IMG/VR virus record: IMGVR_UViG_3300027985_001833
Span: 1 to 64,000 of that record
DNA: 64,000 nt
Strand: one strand, 5' to 3'
Origin: a virus
A model generated the notes under the pieces. It worked only from the letters and a program-made list of their open reading frames with translations, had not been told where the DNA came from and made no database searches. Both the position numbers and the translations under genes were made by a program. Below are positions 2,205-23,123 of this stretch, one piece after another (the stretch's first letter is position 1; every line of letters begins with the position of its first letter).

Positions 2205-2233
2205 ATCATATGAATTAAATTATCGCGGTTCAA
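2205..2233 (-). promoter_or_regulatory. Sigma70-type promoter for the HU-like gene
   Basis: On the minus strand a -35 box TTGAAC (2228-2233) and a -10 box TATGAT (2205-2210) are separated by exactly 17 bp. The -35 overlaps the last codons of the polymerase gene. The -10 box is about 65 bp upstream of the HU-like ATG. Confidence 0.6.
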
Positions 2234-5200
2234 TTACTTTTGCCCCGCCACCATTATAGATATACGTAATCGCTTGCCAACGGCGTTGTTTTTCCAACGC
2301 CACTACGATCAAATCTCCAACGTTAAAATTACCTTTCAATTTCCTCCATTCAGAACCGAAACAGATAAAATCCAAATCCAAATCAACACCAGACATCGCC
2401 ACAAACGCCATCTCGTTTCCGCGTTTATCAATTTTTGTTTTAATGCTACAAACAACACCGCAATATGTCCCGCCCACACTACTTTTTTTGAATTTCGAAT
2501 TAGTAATACGTAATTCCCTCACCGTTTCAGTCTTCCAAACATGCGATAATGCCGGATGACGACCTGTGACCAAACGCTCCCATATACTCAAGTCTTTATT
2601 AGCAACCAACTTTTTTCTCAAAATTTCCAAATCAACTGCATATCTGGCCCTAATGTTAGAATACCTAGCGTTAACGACACAACTAACAACCACAGGCGTT
2701 CCAATTCCAGAATCTATGATTGGGCGCATTTCGTCAAAAATCTCAATATCAAATTTCACTCTATTCTGCTTGCCGCTGACATCCTCGATATTGACGTTGG
2801 CGTATCTGGCGCCCCAATTCATCGCCTCGCGTTCCTCTTCAGGCGGCAACTCTCCAGTGTGAAAATCGCCTATTTGATTGTATTTCACCTCAACCATCAT
2901 CCCTGCTATATAAACGACCTTGTTATCATTCGATTTGAAAAAATCTTCCTCGCCCATTGATTCAATACGTATTTTCAAATTTTCTTTAATAAAATCACCA
3001 TAGGCGTCAATCGGATGTTTACCAAACGCCAACGGGTTAACAGCAGAGGCAATCAACTGTCTTTCCTCTGATGCGTAATCAGGTTTATCCTTCGACTTCA
3101 ACAACATCTTCTTGACCTTCTTGTATCCGTTTTCCTTGCTCAACAAAGGCCAAATAACGTCTATTTCGTCGACGAACCACTTAACGTTAGGCAGCATATT
3201 TTCCAACGCCCCTGCCTTGGCCAATGCCACAATAACCCTTTTGTTACATTTACGGCGATCTATTCTGCCCAAAAAATCGAAAAAGCTCTCATATGGTTGG
3301 TTAGCAATAATGGTATCGGCAGCAGCCTCGCCGACGTTTTTGATATCGACTAGGCTGCCTCTAATTGCATTTTCTTGCCTGTCTATTGAGAATTGGACCT
3401 TAGATGTGTTCACAGACGGGGGCAACAGTTCTATGCCTGCCCTCTTTGCCTCCTTGGCTATTTGTTGAATGCGTTGTCTGGAAGGTTCGTTCTTGAGCAA
3501 CGCCCAATAGAATTCCAATGGATGCTTAATTTTCAGATACATCGAGAAATAAGCAATCATCCCATAAGCTGTAGCGTGGGAATTATGGCTAACAACTGGA
3601 TCATATTTATCTGGATCGCTGGTCGCTACGTAATTGTGTCCCTCTGTTGCCATCTCCAAATCGTAACAACGCTTTTTGCCCATAGAGATGATTTCAATTA
3701 TTTTATCCGCATACGTCGGTCTGCCTTTTTTCCACCTTTTTGTTCGCTCCCTTTTCTCGTAATCTTTTTTCTTGTGACACGAATTACAAAGCAATTGTAA
3801 ATTAGACTCGTGGTGATAAACGATATGATTATAATCACACTCCTCTGGTGTTCTATTGTGCGCAACTTCGTGCCCACCCCTACCCTTGCACCCTTTTTCT
3901 CCGCACAACTCGCATGCGCCTTTTGCCCGCTCCCAGATTTTTTCGCACGTACACTTGTATTCTTCGTTGTTTCTGAACGATTGCGAAAATCTGGTGTCTT
4001 TATTCATCCACCAAACGCAATAATCCTTACTGGTGTTTTCGCCCATAAATAACAATTCGTCTCCAACCGATAATCCGGTATTCAACGATTTATATCCACC
4101 AGAAGTCATCAAACGATGGGCGGCGCTTATCAACGGCGTACGATTGCCATTCTCGGTGATCAACTCAAAAACTTCAATTTCACCGTGATCGTGTATATCA
4201 ACCAAACGCCCCGGTCTACAACGACCATCGGAATCCATTTGAATTATATCAATACCGCGATAACGCATTTTTTGTGCTATTGGCGTCAATGCTCCCTTGG
4301 ACCACTTTTTCAAATGAGGATGCCAAACTGGTTCCGTTCTAGAATCACGAGCAGCAACTAAATCCTTAATCGTCACCCAAGGCGTTCCTTGTTTTTGATG
4401 AGTTCCCGCTCTCAAAACATACGAATTTTCCCATAAAGTTTTGTTAAATCCGTAACTCCCAAAAAAGGTGATTGTGTCCATTATCTTATTGGCTTGGGCC
4501 TCAGTCATGTCTGGCGTGTTCTTCATCGCTCCCTTCACAAAATTCTCACGCTCTTTGCCAATCGTTTCATCGCCCTTCTTTTTAGCAATCGCCTTCCTCA
4601 ATGAATCGCTCGTGCCCGGAGCAAATCCCGCTATTTCATTAAAAATCCTGATCACGTGCTCCTGATACACCATGATTCCAAGCGTATCGGATGTAATTTC
4701 AGTCACTTTCGGATGAATTGACGCTTTCCCAATCAACTTAGGATTTTTTTTCCTTTTCACAAACTCAGTGGCCAAACCGCTCCTGGCCGTTCCGGGACGG
4801 TTCAACGCCGTCATGGCAGCCACGTCGCTAAAATCCGTAAATGGAACACCCTCGCATATCTTATCAGCACCAGGGGTATCGTATTGAAAAATGCCAGAAT
4901 AATTGTGATCTGTGAACCCTTGTAACACTTCATGTATGTTGAGGTCTAATTTCTCCAAATCTATCCATTCTCCAGTGTGTTTTTCAATCGCTTCAACGCA
5001 TTCTCTCAACACGGTCAAAGTTCTCAACCCCAAAACGTCTAATTTCACCAAGCCCATCGCTCCAACGCCATACATATCTATCGCGGTCACCAACACATCC
5101 TCGCCATTACTTTTCCTGATCTCCAACGGCACATACTCGGTCAAAGGCTCTGGCGAAACGACAACGCCTGCAGCATGGACACCCAAATTTTTAGCCATAT

Positions 5201-6881
5201 TTTCCAATCGCTTAGCGTGTTTCAATACAAACGGATATTTTTTATCAAACTCTCTACAAACTTTGAAATCCTTGAATGAATCCTCAATGGTTTGGCTGGC
5301 TCTTTCATCTCCGCTGGAGCGCTCAATGATTGAGTTAGTAATAACGTTAACCTCCAAATATGGAACCTCGTAAACCCTGGAAATGTCTTTGACACACTGT
5401 TTCCCGGATAAACGACCTATGGTGGCAATTTGAGCAACTCTGTCTGTGCCATATTTGTCTCTAAGATAACCCATGATTTCTTTTCTTCTAATGTCTTCAA
5501 AATCCATATCAATGTCAGGCATATCCACACGCTCTGGATTCAAAAATCTCTCGAAAATCAAATCATGTTCAATCGGATCAACAGAAGTCAAGCCCATCAG
5601 GTAAGCAACCAAACATCCTGCCACGGAACCACGTCCAGGCCCGCACATTATTCTATTCGTTCTTGCCCAATTATAAATGTCGTAAACCATCAAAAAATAT
5701 GGAACAAATTTTTGAACCCTGATAGAACTAAGTTCGTGAACCAAGCGCTCTTTATAAACCTGCTTCATATGAGCAGTTGACACACCTCTTTTCTGAGCCA
5801 AGATGGCAGCCCGCCTTGAAATTTCTCTCCACGTCCAACCTTGAAAACACAAATCTTTCAAATAATCCCATTCCGTTTTGAACTTGCCGGGCAACTGCAT
5901 TTTTGGGAGAAGAGCGGCGTGCCAATCGATATTCAGCCTGGCCGTTATCGTTTCGTTAAATTCCATTGTCCCATTCAACGCTGCTATGATATTCTGCTCG
6001 CCCATATATCCGTGTCTTTTAACAAAGGCTTGATACATTTGTTTGCGGCTCTTGAGAAAAAAATCGTTTCCATCAAATCTGAATCTCTCTGGATTGGATA
6101 TATGATCGTTAGTGCCGATGCAAAGAAGCACTTCGTGATGAATGTGATCCCCTTCCCAAACATAATGTGCATCCTGGGTAGCTATGAATTTGGCGTCCCC
6201 CCACCTTTCTTTCAACTCCATGGCAAATCTATTCGCCGTGATTTGATCATCTATGGCATGCGGCTGAACCTCAATCCACAAATCTTCGCCAAATTTATCA
6301 CGCAATCTATCAGCGATTTCCAAGGCTTGACGCTTTTTACCGGCGCACACCCTGTCGTAGATGACAGACGACATACATCCGGTTCCCACAACCAACCCAT
6401 CGCCGTGCTCAATTAAAGCATCCAAGTCTATTCTAGGTTTGTAGTAAAAACCATCAACGTAAGCAGCCGTGGACAACCTAAACAGATTCTTCAACCCCTC
6501 ATTATTCTTAGCCCAAACGGTCAAGTGCCAACGGTCGCGAATTCCGTGTTCACTCTCATACTTCTTAATTGCGGCCTTTCTCTCATTAGGTTTCAACCCT
6601 TTGGTGATTTCGGCCTTTTCATCCTCCGTGAGCCCTTTTCGGTGCATATCGTTGCTCACATAGAACTCAATGCCGTGAATGGCCTTTATGCCAGCATCCT
6701 CACACGCCATGTGAGACGCATAATAACCCCTCATTGACCCGTGTTCTGTGAACGCTATGGCAGGTTGCCCCAACTCCGCTGCTCTCTGTGCGTAATCGGG
6801 AATTTTCCCGCAACCGTCAAGTTGACTCATGTCAGAATGAGTGTGAAGGTGAACAAAATCGTCTTTTTCTTTTTTTGCCAT
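2220..6881 (-). CDS. dnaE: DNA polymerase III alpha subunit (DnaE) with intein
   Basis: This 1553-aa precursor is the replicative C-family DNA polymerase. The N-terminal PHP domain begins HLHTHSDMSQLDG (residues 11-23). The polymerase core carries the catalytic aspartates in PDIDMDFED (about residue 450) and the finger motif SYGFNK...SHATAY, which the intein splits. Without the 286-aa intein (residues 815-1100) the mature enzyme is about 1267 aa, slightly longer than the usual 1150-1200. The C-terminal part, ending in an OB-like segment, replaces tau/beta-binding regions less clearly. The ATG at 6881 follows the kinase stop by one base, so both are in one operon with ThyX. The phage therefore copies its DNA with a bacterial-type enzyme rather than a family A or B polymerase. 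Confidence 0.93.
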   Translation of the reverse strand: MAKKEKDDFVHLHTHSDMSQLDGCGKIPDYAQRAAELGQPAIAFTEHGSMRGYYASHMACEDAGIKAIHGIEFYVSNDMHRKGLTEDEKAEITKGLKPNERKAAIKKYESEHGIRDRWHLTVWAKNNEGLKNLFRLSTAAYVDGFYYKPRIDLDALIEHGDGLVVGTGCMSSVIYDRVCAGKKRQALEIADRLRDKFGEDLWIEVQPHAIDDQITANRFAMELKERWGDAKFIATQDAHYVWEGDHIHHEVLLCIGTNDHISNPERFRFDGNDFFLKSRKQMYQAFVKRHGYMGEQNIIAALNGTMEFNETITARLNIDWHAALLPKMQLPGKFKTEWDYLKDLCFQGWTWREISRRAAILAQKRGVSTAHMKQVYKERLVHELSSIRVQKFVPYFLMVYDIYNWARTNRIMCGPGRGSVAGCLVAYLMGLTSVDPIEHDLIFERFLNPERVDMPDIDMDFEDIRRKEIMGYLRDKYGTDRVAQIATIGRLSGKQCVKDISRVYEVPYLEVNVITNSIIERSSGDERASQTIEDSFKDFKVCREFDKKYPFVLKHAKRLENMAKNLGVHAAGVVVSPEPLTEYVPLEIRKSNGEDVLVTAIDMYGVGAMGLVKLDVLGLRTLTVLRECVEAIEKHTGEWIDLEKLDLNIHEVLQGFTDHNYSGIFQYDTPGADKICEGVPFTDFSDVAAMTALNRPGTARSGLATEFVKRKKNPKLIGKASIHPKVTEITSDTLGIMVYQEHVIRIFNEIAGFAPGTSDSLRKAIAKKKGDETIGKERENFVKGAMKNTPDMTEAQANKIMDTITFFGSYGFNKTLWENSYVLRAGTHQKQGTPWVTIKDLVAARDSRTEPVWHPHLKKWSKGALTPIAQKMRYRGIDIIQMDSDGRCRPGRLVDIHDHGEIEVFELITENGNRTPLISAAHRLMTSGGYKSLNTGLSVGDELLFMGENTSKDYCVWWMNKDTRFSQSFRNNEEYKCTCEKIWERAKGACELCGEKGCKGRGGHEVAHNRTPEECDYNHIVYHHESNLQLLCNSCHKKKDYEKRERTKRWKKGRPTYADKIIEIISMGKKRCYDLEMATEGHNYVATSDPDKYDPVVSHNSHATAYGMIAYFSMYLKIKHPLEFYWALLKNEPSRQRIQQIAKEAKRAGIELLPPSVNTSKVQFSIDRQENAIRGSLVDIKNVGEAAADTIIANQPYESFFDFLGRIDRRKCNKRVIVALAKAGALENMLPNVKWFVDEIDVIWPLLSKENGYKKVKKMLLKSKDKPDYASEERQLIASAVNPLAFGKHPIDAYGDFIKENLKIRIESMGEEDFFKSNDNKVVYIAGMMVEVKYNQIGDFHTGELPPEEEREAMNWGARYANVNIEDVSGKQNRVKFDIEIFDEMRPIIDSGIGTPVVVSCVVNARYSNIRARYAVDLEILRKKLVANKDLSIWERLVTGRHPALSHVWKTETVRELRITNSKFKKSSVGGTYCGVVCSIKTKIDKRGNEMAFVAMSGVDLDLDFICFGSEWRKLKGNFNVGDLIVVALEKQRRWQAITYIYNGGGAKVIEPR
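3582..4439 (-). other. Intein with HNH endonuclease inserted in DnaE (Thr1, HN/Ser+1)
   Basis: The 286-aa in-frame insertion separates GFNK from SHATAY in the polymerase active-site motif. Block A starts at Thr (TLWENSYVL). Block B has PLISAAHRL around intein residues 102-110, block F is CYDLEM...GHNYVA (258-272), and the end is VVSHN followed by extein Ser. Between blocks B and F lies an HNH nuclease with paired cysteines (C163/C165, C176/C179, C218/C221) and GGHEVAH...HHESN...CHKKK, so the element looks mobile. The first residue is Thr where Cys or Ser is normal. The position-4 residue of block F is Asp, which argues against a class 3 intein. Splicing itself is not shown by sequence. Confidence 0.9.
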
Positions 6882-6882
6882 C

Positions 6883-7446
6883 TTAGACGCCTAACATGCG
6901 CAATATCCTATCAACGGTGTGCCTCGGGTCGCCTTGTTTCGTATCGATTTTGATTTTTGGAATAGTGATCATCTTCCAAACTTTATCGAATCTCTTTTGA
7001 ATGGCGGTGTAATCCTTTTTATTCGGACACCATCTGACATCCCCGACGCAACGGCTCTTGGCAACCTCATAAGCAACATCCAATTGAACGTAAACAAGCT
7101 TTCCTCTGGAACCTTGCTTGATTCTTTCTTCCCACCACTTGATCATGCTTTTGTAATTCGAGCTATCACCGGCGCAATCGTAAGCAATCGCAGATGGAAG
7201 AGAACGGTCAAGGATTATTCCAGGACTAGTCTTAGACACAAGGTCTGCCACAACCAAATCTTCCCAAAACGTATTAACCGAAACGCCCCATCTTTGTAAA
7301 TCACCGTAATCTCTTTCACCAGTAACCTTGTTGGGCCGTTTCACATCTTCAAACGGCTTGTACAGAACAAGAGTCGTCAGACCTTTCAACAAATTGGCAA
7401 CCGTCGTTTTCCCCGTCCCGTTAATCCCTTCCAACACAACAATCAT
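6883..7446 (-). CDS. Thymidylate-kinase-like dNMP kinase
   Basis: This 187-aa P-loop protein has a Walker A EGINGTGKTT (residues 6-15) and the dNMP-kinase DRS motif followed by AIAYD (80-89), both typical of thymidylate kinases. The length is a little below the bacterial Tmk norm of 200-213 aa. Family members phosphorylate dTMP or, in some phages, a modified dUMP derivative such as hydroxymethyl-dUMP. The start codon overlaps the ThyX stop (TAATG), so the two are translationally coupled. That supports the kinase acting on the ThyX-like product. Whether the substrate is dTMP or a modified nucleotide cannot be read here; a DNA-base kinase is less likely given the DRS motif. Confidence 0.78.
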   Translation of the reverse strand: MIVVLEGINGTGKTTVANLLKGLTTLVLYKPFEDVKRPNKVTGERDYGDLQRWGVSVNTFWEDLVVADLVSKTSPGIILDRSLPSAIAYDCAGDSSNYKSMIKWWEERIKQGSRGKLVYVQLDVAYEVAKSRCVGDVRWCPNKKDYTAIQKRFDKVWKMITIPKIKIDTKQGDPRHTVDRILRMLGV

Positions 7447-8438
7447 TATATCTTCTCACCAGTCGCAGGATTTCTTCTCCAAAATTTTCGATATTGAACC
7501 GCTCTATCAATCATCTCTTTCCACATATTGATATTATCAGCCGTGGCCAAACCGCCTAAATCAACCATACTATCGACGTAATCGCCTTGGCCATCAAAAT
7601 AATGGTGCTTGGCAAGATGAAGCGGGCAAGGCGGCAACTCGTCATCACCGTCCAAACGCCTTTGACACTCTTCCATATAGATACACTCTTTGAATTTATC
7701 GTCATCCCCGATGCAAGGCGGTTTGACCAAATCGGCGAAAATCGGATTCACCTTGTTCACCAATTCTTCAATCATCCCCATGATGACCGGTCCCCAAATC
7801 CCGAGTTGAAGAATAAAACAAGACCTTTTGCCTACTATATGCTGAAGCGAACCGATATTAAGCTTCCAACTGATGCGGTGATGAGCGCCCAACGGCAGCA
7901 ACTCTCTTGCGTCTTCCATAGGGATTCCCAATTCAATCAACTTACTATAAGCCCTTTGGATAGCATAGATAGTATCTTGATAAATATCGCTAGCCATCTC
8001 TCCAGCGTCAACGATTGTTTTAGGCAAACGATATTCGCCATTAACCGCAAATTTGTCGACCTTTCGAATACGATGGGATTGGCTCCACCAACTAGATGAA
8101 GCAAGATCTGGTATAATATCCAATCCCATCCTTTCTGGAGAAATCAACGTTCCTATGCGATGTCTGACCGCTTGTTCACGCCAGCTGATGGAAACGTTTT
8201 CAATTAAAAATACAAAATCTATATGTTCACCAATCGGTATACGCTGGGCGATTACGGCTTTGAACAATTTCTCCACCTCTTCAGCAGGAACTTTTTCTCT
8301 CACTTCTTCTGGCAACATCAGGGGCTCATCATCTTTCGACGCCATCCAAACAGAGTAAACAGTTTCCAAAGGGAATTGCGTCCAAGACAATAGTGTTATT
8401 CTCGGTTCATTATTCATCATCATCAAATTCCTCATCAT
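7446..8438 (-). CDS. Divergent ThyX-like flavin-dependent pyrimidine-nucleotide enzyme
   Basis: ThyX enzymes methylate dUMP using FAD, NADPH and methylene-THF. This 330-aa protein keeps the ThyX framework: an EHIDFVFLIENVSISWREQAVRHR core (residues about 98-121) and a C-terminal WKLNIGSLQHIV...R...Q pattern. However, RHR is followed by IGTLISPERMG instead of the signature with Ser ten residues on, and a Cys-rich tail (CIGDDDKFKEC...EEC...PPCPLH) is added after residue about 240. It is longer than the usual 220-260 aa. Several in-frame Met codons lie near the start and I keep the longest. The altered signature leaves open an ordinary thymidylate synthase or a variant adding another group, such as hydroxymethyl. 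Confidence 0.72.
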   Translation of the reverse strand: MMRNLMMMNNEPRITLLSWTQFPLETVYSVWMASKDDEPLMLPEEVREKVPAEEVEKLFKAVIAQRIPIGEHIDFVFLIENVSISWREQAVRHRIGTLISPERMGLDIIPDLASSSWWSQSHRIRKVDKFAVNGEYRLPKTIVDAGEMASDIYQDTIYAIQRAYSKLIELGIPMEDARELLPLGAHHRISWKLNIGSLQHIVGKRSCFILQLGIWGPVIMGMIEELVNKVNPIFADLVKPPCIGDDDKFKECIYMEECQRRLDGDDELPPCPLHLAKHHYFDGQGDYVDSMVDLGGLATADNINMWKEMIDRAVQYRKFWRRNPATGEKI

Positions 8439-8610
8439 CGACGAGCGGATTTCTCGTGTTCCACTCTTCCAATTCTTTTTCGTTGTTTATCCACTGCGAC
8501 TTCCATCTTTCTATAAACAACCAACAATAGTCCTTGTGAACTATTCTCCATTTTCCTTTATACAATTCAATTTCTGCGTCGCAAAACGGACAATCTTTTG
8601 GAACTTTCAT
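8410..8610 (-). CDS. Lar-like small zinc-finger protein
   Basis: This 66-aa protein begins with CPFCDAEIE followed by a HKDYC half-site and an aromatic W...W...W.TRN tail, the pattern of phage Lar-type (restriction-alleviation) zinc proteins, and ends in an acidic patch. Function is inferred from the pattern only. Its ribosome site (AGGTG) falls inside the T-arm of a broken tRNA immediately upstream. Its end overlaps the ThyX start. Confidence 0.55.
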   Translation of the reverse strand: MKVPKDCPFCDAEIELYKGKWRIVHKDYCWLFIERWKSQWINNEKELEEWNTRNPLVDDEEFDDDE

Positions 8611-8668
8611 TTCGCACCTGCAACCAGTGGTTTACAACACCGCCGCTCTACCATTGGGCCACCCGGCC
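8611..8668 (-). pseudogene. Truncated tRNA remnant, tRNA-Thr(UGU)-like
   Basis: On the minus strand the sequence reads as a tRNA from its 5' end: acceptor strand GGCCGGG, a D-arm with AATGGTAGAGC, an anticodon loop GTTGTAA giving anticodon UGU (plus-strand 8634-8636), and the start of a T-arm GCAGG-TGCGAAA. The returning T-stem and 3' acceptor strand are missing and the sequence passes directly into the Lar-like start codon. One D-stem and one anticodon-stem pair are mismatched and position 32 is G. It therefore looks like a decayed tRNA, not a working one. The retained T-arm now supplies the downstream gene's ribosome site. Confidence 0.55.
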
Positions 8669-8680
8669 AACTCTAATCAT

Positions 8681-8788
8681 TCACAAATTATAGATGTCAT
8701 CGGGATTCTTGCCCGCCGCTTTGTACCCCTTCGCGTACATGGCCATATCCAAAAAACGCATTTCACCGCCACAATTCAAGCATTTCAT
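8681..8788 (-). CDS. Possible 35-aa CxxC micro-protein
   Basis: The short frame encodes MKCLNCGGEM followed by a hydrophilic tail and ends just before the tRNA remnant. It overlaps the last codons of the aminotransferase in another frame. The single CxxC could bind zinc as a dimer. There is no clear ribosome site, so it may depend on translational coupling. This call is weak. Confidence 0.35.
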   Translation of the reverse strand: MKCLNCGGEMRFLDMAMYAKGYKAAGKNPDDIYNL

Positions 8789-9926
8789 TATACACATCGC
8801 AAAGGATGATCAAGCCTTCATTCAAATCTTCAATTGAGATATTCAAAGGCGGCGTAATTTTAATCGGTCCTGGACCCTTCCTAAAAGCTCCTATTATCAA
8901 ACCGCGCTTCAAACATCTATCGGCCAATTCCAAACAATCCACTTGGCTATCGTAGGCAAGCAACATTCCTGCCCCTCTGGCATCAACATCCAAATTGATT
9001 TTCAAAGTATTTCTGATTATATCGCCCTTTTCTTGGATATCTTCCAAATTGCCTTCATCCTCCAACCAATCCAACATAGTATCAACATATGAACAAGATG
9101 CAGGATTGCCCCCAAAAGTTGAAAAATGTGAACCTGGCGTAAAAGCCTGGGCAATGTCATTTCGTGCTAACATTGCTCCAACCGGAAATCCCATTCCAAT
9201 CCCTTTAGCCAAGGTGACAATATCAGGCTGAATTTTAGCCAATTGCCCATATGTTATGCCACCACACCGACCCATACCGGTTTGAACCTCATCAAAAATC
9301 AACAATATGCCGTTCAGTTCAGCATATCGTTTCAAATTTTCCAACCAACTCCAATCTGGAACGCGCACATCATTATTGCCGAATATTGGTGAAAGTATAA
9401 TTGCGGCAGCAGTGGGCGGAATCTCATAAATATCCGTGAAATGATGGAAATCGCCAGGCAAATTTCCAAATCCATCATAATGATAACTCGGTCCATCACC
9501 GGCTGCCAACGCACCATATGTACGCCCATGGAATCCGTCTTTTTGAGACCATATTTGGAAAGTGCGAGCTTCATCCTCAGCAAATCTATCATATTGATAT
9601 TTCCTTGCCAACTTGATAGCAGCCTCCACGGATTCCGTGCCGCTATTGCACCAAAATACCCTATCCATCCCGGTCGCTTTGCACAAACGCTTTGAAACCT
9701 GATTTCTCAAAGAATATTGAAACAAATTCGGAGAGTGCAAAACGATTCCTTGGGCCAACGCTTGAGCAGCCAGCACATGCTGCTCGCAACCATACCCAAG
9801 GCTGGCCGTCCCCACGTCTGTGAAAAAATCCAAATATTCATTCCCACCATAGGTAACGAGCCGTGAACCATTGCCGCCCACAAACACCAAATCCTTGAAT
9901 TTCAACGTATTCATGATGCTATGCAT
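8763..9926 (-). CDS. Class III PLP-dependent aminotransferase
   Basis: This 387-aa enzyme carries the hallmarks of the class III (acetylornithine / glutamate-1-semialdehyde) aminotransferase fold. These are NSGTESVEAAIKLAR (PLP phosphate-binding, about 94-108), GFHGRTYG (131-138), IFDEVQTGMGR (210-220) and the catalytic lysine in TLAKGIGMGFPVGA (K241). It moves an amino group between an amine or amino acid and an aldehyde or ketone, and appears catalytically intact. Its start overlaps the end of the pyrophosphatase/HAD gene. In a phage nucleotide operon it may aminate an oxidised base or a sugar nucleotide. A role in amino-acid metabolism is also possible, as the substrate cannot be read from sequence. 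Confidence 0.85.
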   Translation of the reverse strand: MHSIMNTLKFKDLVFVGGNGSRLVTYGGNEYLDFFTDVGTASLGYGCEQHVLAAQALAQGIVLHSPNLFQYSLRNQVSKRLCKATGMDRVFWCNSGTESVEAAIKLARKYQYDRFAEDEARTFQIWSQKDGFHGRTYGALAAGDGPSYHYDGFGNLPGDFHHFTDIYEIPPTAAAIILSPIFGNNDVRVPDWSWLENLKRYAELNGILLIFDEVQTGMGRCGGITYGQLAKIQPDIVTLAKGIGMGFPVGAMLARNDIAQAFTPGSHFSTFGGNPASCSYVDTMLDWLEDEGNLEDIQEKGDIIRNTLKINLDVDARGAGMLLAYDSQVDCLELADRCLKRGLIIGAFRKGPGPIKITPPLNISIEDLNEGLIILCDVYNEMLELWR

Positions 9927-10860
9927 CTATTTTCTCCTTGTGAATGTTGTGAACAATTTCCTGCCAACTATTCACCGTTTTCACCAACGGCGCATCAACT
10001 TCCTTCTCTCCTTTTAAATCCAAAAGAAACACTGTAATGCCTAACGCTGAAACCTCCAGCGCGTGTTTCTCTCTGTCCTCAACAAACCATTGCGGAAACG
10101 CAGGTTTAAGATGATCACAGATAATTTCCGCTTTATCCCTACCAAATAACAACAAATCATACGGAACGCCGTATCTATCCAACCACCGTATTGTATCAGA
10201 GTACAATCTTTTGTGTTTTTTGTATGGGCGAGCTGTTATTATGGCTACTTTATAACCGATTTCTTTGAATAATTTAATACATTCAATTGAGTTGTCAATT
10301 GGAGACAAGTCAAGAAATTTCCCTTTTTCTCTCCATTCAAATTTTAACGCTTCTTGTTTGGCCAGAATCTGACTTGGCGATTCACAAGAGTTGGCTATTT
10401 CAGCCAACTCATCATCCAACGGTCCCAAATCAACAACACAACCATCTAAATCCAAACCAATCAACCGAGAATCGCTTGTCAATTTGGCTTGCGCTACTTT
10501 TACTCGATGTCGAATCACTTCTGTTTTGCGAATGAACCTATTATAAAATTCTTCGTGCGTAATTCCATATAAATGCATCAATGATATTAAGTATTTGATT
10601 ACATCAACCGCTTCCTCAAGTATGGCGCTTTCACTTATCCTCAAATCCCCCAAAATGTGCTCTTTGTAATTAGTGGACGCCGATGCCAACTCCGTCACTT
10701 CTTCGTTCAACCCAATGATAAAATCCTTGGCTAATGCTAATTTATCCACTTCCGGCATATCGCCAGAGCCAAACCCAAATTCCTGTTGCTGGAAAGCTTG
10801 TGCGCTCCAAATTTTTTCCAATTTACAACATTTAATGTTTGAATTTTGATCAAACGGCAT
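9919..10860 (-). CDS. NTP pyrophosphatase-like domain fused to HAD phosphatase domain
   Basis: The 313-aa protein has two domains. The N-terminal about 120 residues are all-alpha with NEEVTELA and EEAVDVIKY helices, the EExxE...ExxD metal pattern of MazG/dUTPase-type NTP pyrophosphatases. The C-terminal half is a HAD hydrolase with DLDGCVV (nucleophile and acid), IITARP and a late FVEDREKHA aspartate motif, as in 5'-nucleotidase-like HADs. Together they could take a dNTP to dNMP and then to the nucleoside, removing an unwanted nucleotide. I choose the ATG at 10860 (site GAGGGA) over an upstream frame extension. Its downstream end overlaps the aminotransferase. Confidence 0.7.
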   Translation of the reverse strand: MPFDQNSNIKCCKLEKIWSAQAFQQQEFGFGSGDMPEVDKLALAKDFIIGLNEEVTELASASTNYKEHILGDLRISESAILEEAVDVIKYLISLMHLYGITHEEFYNRFIRKTEVIRHRVKVAQAKLTSDSRLIGLDLDGCVVDLGPLDDELAEIANSCESPSQILAKQEALKFEWREKGKFLDLSPIDNSIECIKLFKEIGYKVAIITARPYKKHKRLYSDTIRWLDRYGVPYDLLLFGRDKAEIICDHLKPAFPQWFVEDREKHALEVSALGITVFLLDLKGEKEVDAPLVKTVNSWQEIVHNIHKEKIDA

Positions 10861-10904
10861 AGATTCCCTCGCGATTAAAACCTTGACGCACGAGACGCGC
10901 CATA

Positions 10905-11891
10905 TTACAACCATTTCTCGGCTAATTCAATTGCGTTTTCCAAAATTTTATCAACGGTTCCACGCGAATTCCATTCAGCAAAACGACCCAATGGCGCCAT
11001 ATTTTCCGGCCACTGTATTTTTTCGCCCATTGGGTGCAAGTGCCCTTTCAAACCTCTTGTTATTTTTTTTATAACATAACCAGCACCGAATATAAAATTT
11101 AAATCAGAAACGACATCTACCATTCGTGGTGCCAATTCACCATTCACTTCACAAACGTAACACACACCATCAACAGAAAAACGATGAATAGCATCACCAG
11201 GCGTATATGGCGTATAGACATAGTCCCAACCAGCATATCTATCATTTTTTGGCACAACGTCAATCAAATTCAAATTCATCGCCATAGCATCAGGAATATA
11301 AAAATCAACCAATCTCTTGATAATCCACAACGGCACGGTGAAAATCAAATAGTCAAAAGCATACCGCCTTCCCTTATCAGTCATCAGAGAATTTTCGCCC
11401 AACACTTTGATCACTTTTTCCCTCACTATCTCGCCACCATCCCTTTTCAACCTTGCGGCCAACCTATTCACCATATCCACAAAATCCAACCTGATAGCGC
11501 CCTTGGAAATACTATTGGCTGGGTCATTCATGGCGGTCTTGTAATGGCTGCCTGGCTCCATCATCCTGGTTTTACGAAAATGGTCCATTTGAATTTGTGC
11601 GACCTTGTACTTGTCCATCCGTTGAAACAATTCCGGATAGCGTTCAACCACCCCTCTGTTAAGAATTCCGCCTTTCACGGAGTAGTTGGAAAAAACCAAC
11701 CCCAAATCGATGAACAAGCCCGTCATGTTATCAGTTCGGTGTATGTACTTCAAACCGCCAGCAAGAAATTCCCCGCCCAACTTACCACACTCAAACATCT
11801 TAACATGCGCCCCAAAACTGGAAAAAATGCATGAACTCACCAATCCAGCCACACCGCCACCGACAACCAAAACGTCTTTCGGTTTACTCAT
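10905..11891 (-). CDS. FAD-dependent oxidoreductase (amine-oxidase / protoporphyrinogen-oxidase-like)
   Basis: This 328-aa protein starts with a Rossmann dinucleotide motif DVLVVGGGVAGLVSS and a following acidic strand end (FE), typical of FAD-binding amine oxidases, desaturases and UDP-galactopyranose-mutase relatives. It is shorter than most family members (420-500 aa) and the substrate domain is poorly recognisable. It is the first gene of the candidate nucleotide operon, behind a promoter and a long inverted repeat at 11906-12008. I place the start at the ATG 11891 with GAGG five bases ahead; the longer frame would run through the inverted repeat. Paired with the aminotransferase, it could oxidise an alcohol or amine group, but this is inference. 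Confidence 0.75.
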   Translation of the reverse strand: MSKPKDVLVVGGGVAGLVSSCIFSSFGAHVKMFECGKLGGEFLAGGLKYIHRTDNMTGLFIDLGLVFSNYSVKGGILNRGVVERYPELFQRMDKYKVAQIQMDHFRKTRMMEPGSHYKTAMNDPANSISKGAIRLDFVDMVNRLAARLKRDGGEIVREKVIKVLGENSLMTDKGRRYAFDYLIFTVPLWIIKRLVDFYIPDAMAMNLNLIDVVPKNDRYAGWDYVYTPYTPGDAIHRFSVDGVCYVCEVNGELAPRMVDVVSDLNFIFGAGYVIKKITRGLKGHLHPMGEKIQWPENMAPLGRFAEWNSRGTVDKILENAIELAEKWL

Positions 11892-12024: not shown

Positions 12025-12795
12025 TTATTCAGGCAAACCCAACACGCCAGCCGATACCAATTGACCAATACTTTCTGCCATTATGGATAATTTTCTTTTA
12101 TCCAACCCTTTAATTAATATATTGAAATTTTTATTTTTTCTCGATACCGGCTTCAATATTTCCAAATTGGCCTTAGATAGATTAAGCGTCATATCATCTA
12201 ATGCACAGGTCAATTCCGCATCAAATGTATCGGACGCAGGCCGCAGCTTCAGAAGAATCAATAAAGCATCCCTGCCGTAATTTGCACGAACATACACAGC
12301 CACATAACCGCTGGTTTTTGATCTATCCGCGACAAACAACTTTCCCGGAGTCGGGACTGTGCCTGCAATAGCAAATTCATATCCGGGCATGCTCTTCAAC
12401 AATCGTTGGACAAAAAAATCAAACTTTTTCAACAACTTTTCTCTTTTAATTTTAGCATTAGTCCTTTTGGCCTTCTTGGATGCCAAAATGGCAACACGAG
12501 ATGGCCCGTTGCGCCTAGCATCTTGTCTGCTTCGTTTTTTCCGCGCATTGGACAATTTATCGCAAAAACGCAAAAACGCCCCGTCATCACCGTTTGATTC
12601 AAATCCATCATCGGTCTCGGTCAAAAAAACACCCAAACTAAGTTTTTGATCTTTCAAATGATTTCTGAACGCTCTACAAATTCTTTTTAAATCACAAGGC
12701 TGCCGCTCATCCGAATCCGTTGAAGCGACATTGCCATCACAAGCACAATTGAATTTTTTATATCTCGAAAAACATTGCGGTAATTTATCGCCCAT
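12025..12795 (-). CDS. Unknown cysteine-containing protein
   Basis: I do not recognise this 256-aa protein. The N-terminus has a Cys cluster (C9, C17, C19, then QPCDLKRIC at about 33-41), possibly a metal site. The middle (residues 80-125) is very basic with many KK/RR pairs. The C-terminal half is mixed alpha/beta with a FAIAGTVPTPGKLF hairpin and ends in a helix SIGQLVSAGVLGL. It overlaps the end of the sigma-like gene by 11 bp, so the two are co-translated. Nucleic-acid binding is plausible from charge alone. Confidence 0.6.
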   Translation of the reverse strand: MGDKLPQCFSRYKKFNCACDGNVASTDSDERQPCDLKRICRAFRNHLKDQKLSLGVFLTETDDGFESNGDDGAFLRFCDKLSNARKKRSRQDARRNGPSRVAILASKKAKRTNAKIKREKLLKKFDFFVQRLLKSMPGYEFAIAGTVPTPGKLFVADRSKTSGYVAVYVRANYGRDALLILLKLRPASDTFDAELTCALDDMTLNLSKANLEILKPVSRKNKNFNILIKGLDKRKLSIMAESIGQLVSAGVLGLPE

Positions 12796-22562: not shown

Positions 22563-23123
22563 TTACTCCTGTTGTCGATAGGCCGACATTGGTATGTTTT
22601 TTGATTCTTCCAATATATTTGGCACAATATCAAAGTGACACCAAATTTGATAACCATTTAATCTTGCTTTTTTAATCCACATTCTGTCTGGAGTCAACCA
22701 ATCCCCTGTATATTGCAGCGGTACATTTCGAAATACAACTGTTTTTATCAATGAACATCCCCAGCCGATACTAGCAGATTCTCTTGTGTCGGGCAATTTT
22801 TGTAATCCTTCACCATGACCTCTGCCTGTTAATAATATATCTTTATCGGACAATATCATTTTTATGAATTCGTTTGATTTTAAAATTACATCGGCATCCA
22901 ATATCAATACGTGTGTGAAATTATTTGCTAATGCCCAATCTATGCATTGGCTTATGGCTAAAAAATTGCTACCAAATTTGGAATCATGAAATTTCGTGGT
23001 GATAAAAAATTCCGTTTCGCATGGAGCCTTTAATAATTCACATATACCTTGTGAATATTCTTGGAAATATTTGGTTTTTTTAGGCCACCAAGCAGTTGCT
23101 ATCAATATTTTATTTTCTTTCAT
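22563..23123 (-). CDS. GT-A-type glycosyltransferase-like protein
   Basis: This 186-aa protein is compact for a glycosyltransferase. It shows an N-terminal strand, a THVLILDADVIL segment (the DxD metal/nucleotide-sugar motif of GT-A enzymes, about 70-81) and a later GWGCSLIKTVVFR acceptor-side segment. It overlaps the fibre gene end by 14 bp. Placement next to a fibre suggests it glycosylates a virion or host-surface molecule. The lack of a long C-terminal domain makes activity uncertain. Confidence 0.6.
   Translation of the reverse strand: MKENKILIATAWWPKKTKYFQEYSQGICELLKAPCETEFFITTKFHDSKFGSNFLAISQCIDWALANNFTHVLILDADVILKSNEFIKMILSDKDILLTGRGHGEGLQKLPDTRESASIGWGCSLIKTVVFRNVPLQYTGDWLTPDRMWIKKARLNGYQIWCHFDIVPNILEESKNIPMSAYRQQE

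Follow-up and report, generated by a model that had tools for sequence, protein, structure and literature searches.

A compact set of five enzyme genes, placed directly before the gene for DnaE in an uncultivated phage, probably makes a modified thymidine-type deoxynucleotide pre-replicatively, as a precursor of DNA. The operon lies in the first 64,000 bases (called the window here) of a virus record of 78,538 bases, which by our reading of the ORFs appears to come from a phage with contractile-tail genes. The genes, their families, the linkage to DnaE and the clade of the synthase, a divergent group of ThyX-like enzymes named W-type here, are established at the sequence level (Table 1). The logic appears to be that of known pre-replicative systems, and the enzyme combination and the cassette itself appear to be new. 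A literature search, many journals lying outside its coverage, returned no paper on this gene set.

Table 1. Genes of the cassette and its surroundings (positions in the window)
Feature	Position	Strand	Basis or characteristics
Conserved protein directly upstream of FAD gene	12025..12795	-	Present in nearly every relative
FAD-dependent protein, 328 aa	10905..11891	-	UGM/protoporphyrinogen-oxidase-like predicted fold, Rossmann FAD domain
Fusion of all-alpha NTP pyrophosphatase and HAD 5'(3')-deoxyribonucleotidase	9919..10914	-	Family matches and profile matches to PDB relatives
Class III (acetylornithine-type) PLP aminotransferase	8763..9926	-	Aminotran_3; phage-specific clade
Small ORF, 38 aa, CxxC motif, overlaps aminotransferase stop; candidate gene	8681..8797	-	
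Small ORF, 66 aa, CPFC motif, overlaps ThyX-like start; candidate gene	8410..8610	-	
Divergent W-type ThyX-like enzyme	7446..8438	-	RHRX7S insert, WSQSxR, Cys-rich C-terminal extension
Thymidylate-kinase-like dNMP kinase	6883..7446	-	P-loop and DRxxxS retained
DnaE (Pol III alpha), interrupted by an in-frame intein (about 3590-4440)	2220..6881	-	

The genes are transcribed in the order FAD protein, pyrophosphatase/HAD fusion, aminotransferase, ThyX-like enzyme, kinase and DnaE, with intergenic gaps of -10, -8, +324, -1 and +1 bases. An earlier note on this DNA had named five enzymes, and the family searches agree with each of the names. Its description of genes packed with overlaps and followed by DnaE one base later applies to most of the block but fails for the aminotransferase and the ThyX-like gene, which lie 324 bases apart. 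This interval is occupied by the two small CxxC-type ORFs, and because both of them overlap their neighbors the block is nearly continuous. Within DnaE, the insertion at 3590-4440 (minus strand) comprises about 283 residues in frame, with an HNH-like motif and a terminal HN before Ser, as in an intein. The same site looks filled in some related genomes, e.g., L004, L007, L011, and L012, and vacant in others (L006, L008, and L009).

The linkage of the set goes far beyond chance, as it recurs in 14 further non-identical genomes. Profile scans of viral contigs detected the ThyX-like enzyme on 9 contigs, the FAD protein at 24 loci, the pyrophosphatase/HAD fusion at 12 and the aminotransferase at 15. 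Although run separately, these scans led to the same contigs; all of the 12 pyrophosphatase/HAD matches and all of the 15 aminotransferase matches fell inside cassette contigs (one of the former, L085/L020, ends after the second gene). Linkage in relatives had been set beforehand as a point on which the proposal could fail, and it held: the same five genes and DnaE stand together on one strand in 15 genomes, namely the window, L004, L006, L007, L008, L011, L012, L014, L015, L023, L024, L027, L093, L100, and L102, near-identical contig pairs being counted as one genome. The FAD and pyrophosphatase/HAD genes always come first and DnaE last, the positions of the ThyX-like, aminotransferase and kinase genes interchange, and most cassette genes overlap (by 1-10 bases in the window). 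Since the cassette proteins of the relatives are only about 30-60% identical to those of the window, the linkage has been maintained over a long divergence. A Thy1 match was present in every FAD- or cassette-bearing record tested (7/7 and 8/8). A single protein of a distant relative (L033:9575-10858) combines the FAD protein (residues 1-300) with an NTP-pyrophosphatase domain (306-411), an arrangement which mirrors the neighboring genes of the cassette. Neither the FAD nor the ThyX profile picked up a relative in the genome contigs of 84,980 species, and for this reason no host is proposed.

The ThyX-like protein of the window matches the Thy1 family (PF02511) with 72.3 bits against a curated cut-off of 24.8 (E 6e-20). 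Conventional ThyX enzymes carry the signature RHRX7S. This signature is broken in all of the 17 cassette ThyX sequences, in which 22-30 residues lie between RHR and WSQSxR, and WSQSxR stands in for the NExSxR region with its NE pair replaced; a further motif, KRxCWILQxGxWGP, follows downstream in most of them. The equivalents of S88, R90, R147, and R174 of Thermotoga maritima ThyX are retained in the alignment, the reference sequence of which agrees in parts with PDB alignments, and dUMP binding is therefore plausible. The cassette enzyme is classified as something other than an ordinary ThyX: it lacks the conventional signature but belongs to the ThyX fold superfamily PF02511. The phage thus appears to encode a synthase that departs from the conventional enzyme, one of the features expected of pre-replicative thymine hypermodification. 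The AlphaFold model of the window protein is poor (pLDDT 59).

Comparison with named phages placed the enzyme in a subfamily shared with SP-15 and YerA41, in both of which hypermodified thymine of the virion DNA has been demonstrated chemically, and thereby supported the suggestion of the earlier note that it is a synthase variant. The nearest named-phage relative of the cassette ThyX is LIS04_124 (E 2e-32), from a Listeria phage of the SP-15 genus; its motifs WTQTSR and KRLSWIAQATLWSP match WAQTSR and KRIGWIAQSDLWSP of YerA41_081, and a tblastn search with SP15 gp130 recovers YerA41 and others. A phylogeny built from 35 sequences unites the cassette ThyX with LIS04_124, the SP15 gp130 group and YerA41_081/phiXF1_88 in a single clade (support 100/98, and 99/96 after removal of the motif columns; bootstrap 99-100%), separate from conventional ThyX (100/100). 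SP15 and YerA41 are placed there on long branches and in a gappy alignment, and due to the long branches we regard the evidence for the clade as good rather than final. Profile comparison of the cassette ThyX gave 96% with YerA41/phiXF1, 83% with the SP15 group and 78% with conventional ThyX. YerA41_081 itself had no Pfam Thy1 match at E 0.001.

An ordinary supply of dTTP is in our opinion an unlikely purpose of these genes. The ThyX-like enzyme would then make dTMP, the kinase dTDP, and the pyrophosphatase/HAD protein would sanitize dUTP, while the FAD protein and the aminotransferase would meet other needs of the infected cell, e.g., in its nitrogen or polyamine balance. The matches to the ThyX and kinase families agree with this, as do the results for most cassette phages, in which the W-type enzyme was the sole ThyX detected and a full ThyA was not seen (PF00303 had no match in 6 of the 7 records tested, all of them relatives of the window's own). 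However, the broken RHRX7S and the replaced NE pair in 17/17 sequences argue against plain dTMP synthesis, and SP-15 (gp9) and the L007 phage possess a separate, conventional ThyX, the latter with intact RHRX7S spacing. Moreover, the packing of the aminotransferase and FAD genes into the set in 15 genomes and the FAD-pyrophosphatase domain fusion in L033 would be difficult to reconcile with a mere dTTP supply.

The remaining enzymes were assigned by family and profile searches. For the pyrophosphatase/HAD fusion these were NT5C (1.5e-6) and, weakly, PRA-PH, and its profile matched 5'(3')-deoxyribonucleotidases and MazG-like pyrophosphohydrolases in the PDB; the conserved acids of the NTP-pyrophosphatase part were read from the protein alignment. 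The kinase matched Thymidylate_kin (9e-7) and the PHROG thymidylate kinase (4e-11). These families fit the roles first proposed for them, removal of dTTP and activation of the modified dNMP, and the kinase and the pyrophosphatase/nucleotidase for such a pool switch thus seem to be present at the level of families. The aminotransferase matches Aminotran_3 (E 2e-70) with a conserved PLP lysine (K241), and reached 283 bits against the curated NCBIfam cut-off of 410 for ArgD. It is accordingly classified as a member of the same superfamily as ArgD in a separate phage clade. Its matches in named phages share about 35% identity or less and are mostly fragments or carry bacterial-looking annotations.

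The predicted model of the FAD protein (pLDDT 85) looks most like UDP-galactopyranose mutase (UGM), with 4dsh as best structural match (Z 25.0). The nine best structural matches are all UGM (Z 25.0-23.6), followed by protoporphyrinogen oxidase at 23.5; the protein is only about 16% identical to UGM, and likeness to either enzyme is no proof of function. It carries a C-terminal GRFxxW-type motif like that of UGM. The Pfam scan listed Rossmann-type and general FAD matches and no GLF match, and the profile search against the PDB matched the Rossmann part alone. The FAD family was seen only in phage contigs among the viral contigs, named phages and genome contigs searched; the window protein and its relatives from L035 and L032 had no match in 50,697 named phage records.

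The original idea of a FAD oxidase which feeds the aminotransferase in an aldehyde-to-amine step does not hold in general, both because the predicted fold is nearest to UGM and protoporphyrinogen oxidase and because four records (L030, L032, L033, and L035) carry the FAD gene and a ThyX without a class III aminotransferase. The FAD gene therefore tracks ThyX and not the aminotransferase, and a pairing of FAD gene and aminotransferase in every carrier is ruled out. In L030/L026 the FAD gene is the only one of the cassette beside DnaE, with another ThyX elsewhere in the L030 genome, and L030 lacks the pyrophosphatase/HAD gene as well. Three of these records also encode a thymidylate-kinase-like protein that is joined to a short ThyA-like domain or lies in its vicinity, not far from the FAD gene and a gene for a DNA polymerase (L032:16987-18009, L035:12885-13397, L033:12266-12811); Pfam Thymidylat_synt matched only in the L035 record, and L032 and L033 were judged by eye.

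Complete cassettes vary as well. An extra gene like those for SAM-methyltransferases occurs in L006, L007, L008, and L015, and exclusively in cassettes whose aminotransferase belongs to the second of two clades, the exact split of which is weakly supported; the encoded protein is divergent (L006:9204-10007, L007:11145-11897, L008:6430-7200). L027 has two aminotransferases. L014 carries a nucleotide-sugar-type SDR of the Epimerase family between ThyX and the aminotransferase (L014:12816-14030), possibly similar to a sulfoquinovose synthase, and SDRs of the nucleotide-sugar type lie near the FAD gene in L032 and L035, alongside a kinase and a DNA polymerase. The mutase-like flavoenzyme, accompanied in some variants by these SDRs, hints that the substituent may derive from a sugar. 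The exchanged aminotransferase type, the methyltransferase and the SDR suggest diverse modified bases in uncultivated phages.

The same UGM-like fold and the SDRs of L014, L032, and L035 would also suit synthesis of an amino sugar linked to a nucleotide, or of a free nucleoside that acts like an antibiotic or as a signal, in which case the FAD enzyme, the aminotransferase and the SDRs would act on a dTDP- or dUDP-sugar instead of a DNA precursor. We consider this very unlikely, as the genes are constantly adjacent to DnaE and replication genes and include a ThyX-like enzyme and a pyrophosphatase/deoxyribonucleotidase. Furthermore, an ordinary dTDP-sugar needs a sugar-1-phosphate thymidylyltransferase, and none was recognized among the cassette genes read.

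Among the known systems, the SPO1/SP8-type hmdU phages follow the logic proposed for the cassette: a synthase variant, a kinase, removal of the normal dNTP and incorporation by the phage polymerase. Their hmdUMP synthase belongs to the ThyA family (PF00303), whereas that of the cassette is Thy1, and we know of no FAD, aminotransferase or methyltransferase genes alongside it. In phages of the ViI/M6 type, thymine is modified post-replicatively, starting from hmdU in DNA, in a pathway that involves FAD and PLP enzymes. Such a route, with hmdUTP being incorporated and then kinased and decorated within the DNA, is the reading of the cassette to which we give the least credence. It would likewise use a synthase variant, a dNMP kinase and FAD and PLP enzymes, but profiles for one family of aGPT-pyrophosphorylases and for the helical domain of the 5-hmdU DNA kinase had no match in 8 cassette records in a search without positive control, and no class III aminotransferase is known to us from those pathways. 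The products, aminoethoxymethyl-dU and aminoethyl-dU (PMC6449724), resemble the product proposed for the cassette in being amine-bearing thymine derivatives.

The pre-replicative reading finds its closest counterparts in SP-15 and YerA41. In SP-15 over half of the thymine is replaced by 5-(4,5-dihydroxypentyl)uracil (DHPU), which is made before DNA synthesis, and gp130 has already been guessed to be a modifying synthase (PMC5977210); a cited title states that a ribose label enters the modified base. As in the cassette, a W-type ThyX-like gene is located among replication genes, and it is joined to the SDR-like gp129. In contrast to the cassette, no class III aminotransferase is annotated near gp130, and gp130 is only distantly similar to the cassette ThyX. 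YerA41 has a substitution of ca. 1 kDa on thymidine (PMC9023294). It shares with the cassette the W-type YerA41_081, with its WAQTSR and KRxxWIAQxxxWSP motifs, and nearby genes for a MazG-like protein and a 5'(3')-deoxyribonucleotidase, but differs in the oligosaccharide-like nature of its modification. No relative of the FAD family was found in either phage, in a search run without positive control. YerA41_081 (L054:11920-13083), annotated only as hypothetical, is a candidate enzyme for the initial step of the YerA41 modification.

For the cassette we infer the following reactions, including the amine, the order of the steps and the protection of the DNA. The W-type ThyX-like enzyme would attach a substituent other than a plain methyl group at C5 of dUMP, and the UGM-like flavoenzyme would provide or reshape this substituent. 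The class III aminotransferase could then aminate an aldehyde or ketone of the substituent, yielding an amino-bearing dUMP analog; in relatives the methyltransferase or the sugar-type SDR might lead to other end products. The thymidylate-kinase-like protein would phosphorylate the modified dNMP toward the triphosphate, the pyrophosphatase/deoxyribonucleotidase fusion would break down competing dTTP and dUTP, and the adjoining DnaE would incorporate the product, which probably shields the virion DNA from host nucleases. That the product bears an amine in particular is a tentative suggestion, which we hold with less than even confidence. A bolder and rather doubtful version is that the W-type ThyX enzymes of the cassette, SP-15 (gp130) and YerA41 (YerA41_081) join C5 of dUMP by a C-C bond not to a methylene from folate but to a fragment of several carbons that derives from a sugar; in the cassette the UGM-like enzyme would prepare the sugar and the aminotransferase would aminate it. 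Should this version be true, nucleotide hypermodification would gain a branch with a chemistry of its own.

The shared ThyX subfamily provides a named candidate enzyme for the dihydroxypentyl side chain of SP-15 and for the start of the YerA41 modification. The cassette would constitute a new enzymatic route to thymidine triphosphates that bear an amine or a sugar, which could be useful in the synthesis of modified DNA and help to explain the evasion of nucleases by phages. ThyX-like proteins with another altered motif (YQQETSR / YAQQTMR) are encoded by the Pseudomonas PB1-type phage KPP12 (L044:2998-3915) and the Vibrio phage VA-RY-3 (L062:2962-3672), in both cases also a few genes from the phage DNA polymerase gene. 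In the window, the ORF at 22563-23123 (minus strand), near the tail genes, looks like a small GT-A-type glycosyltransferase, without a Pfam match.
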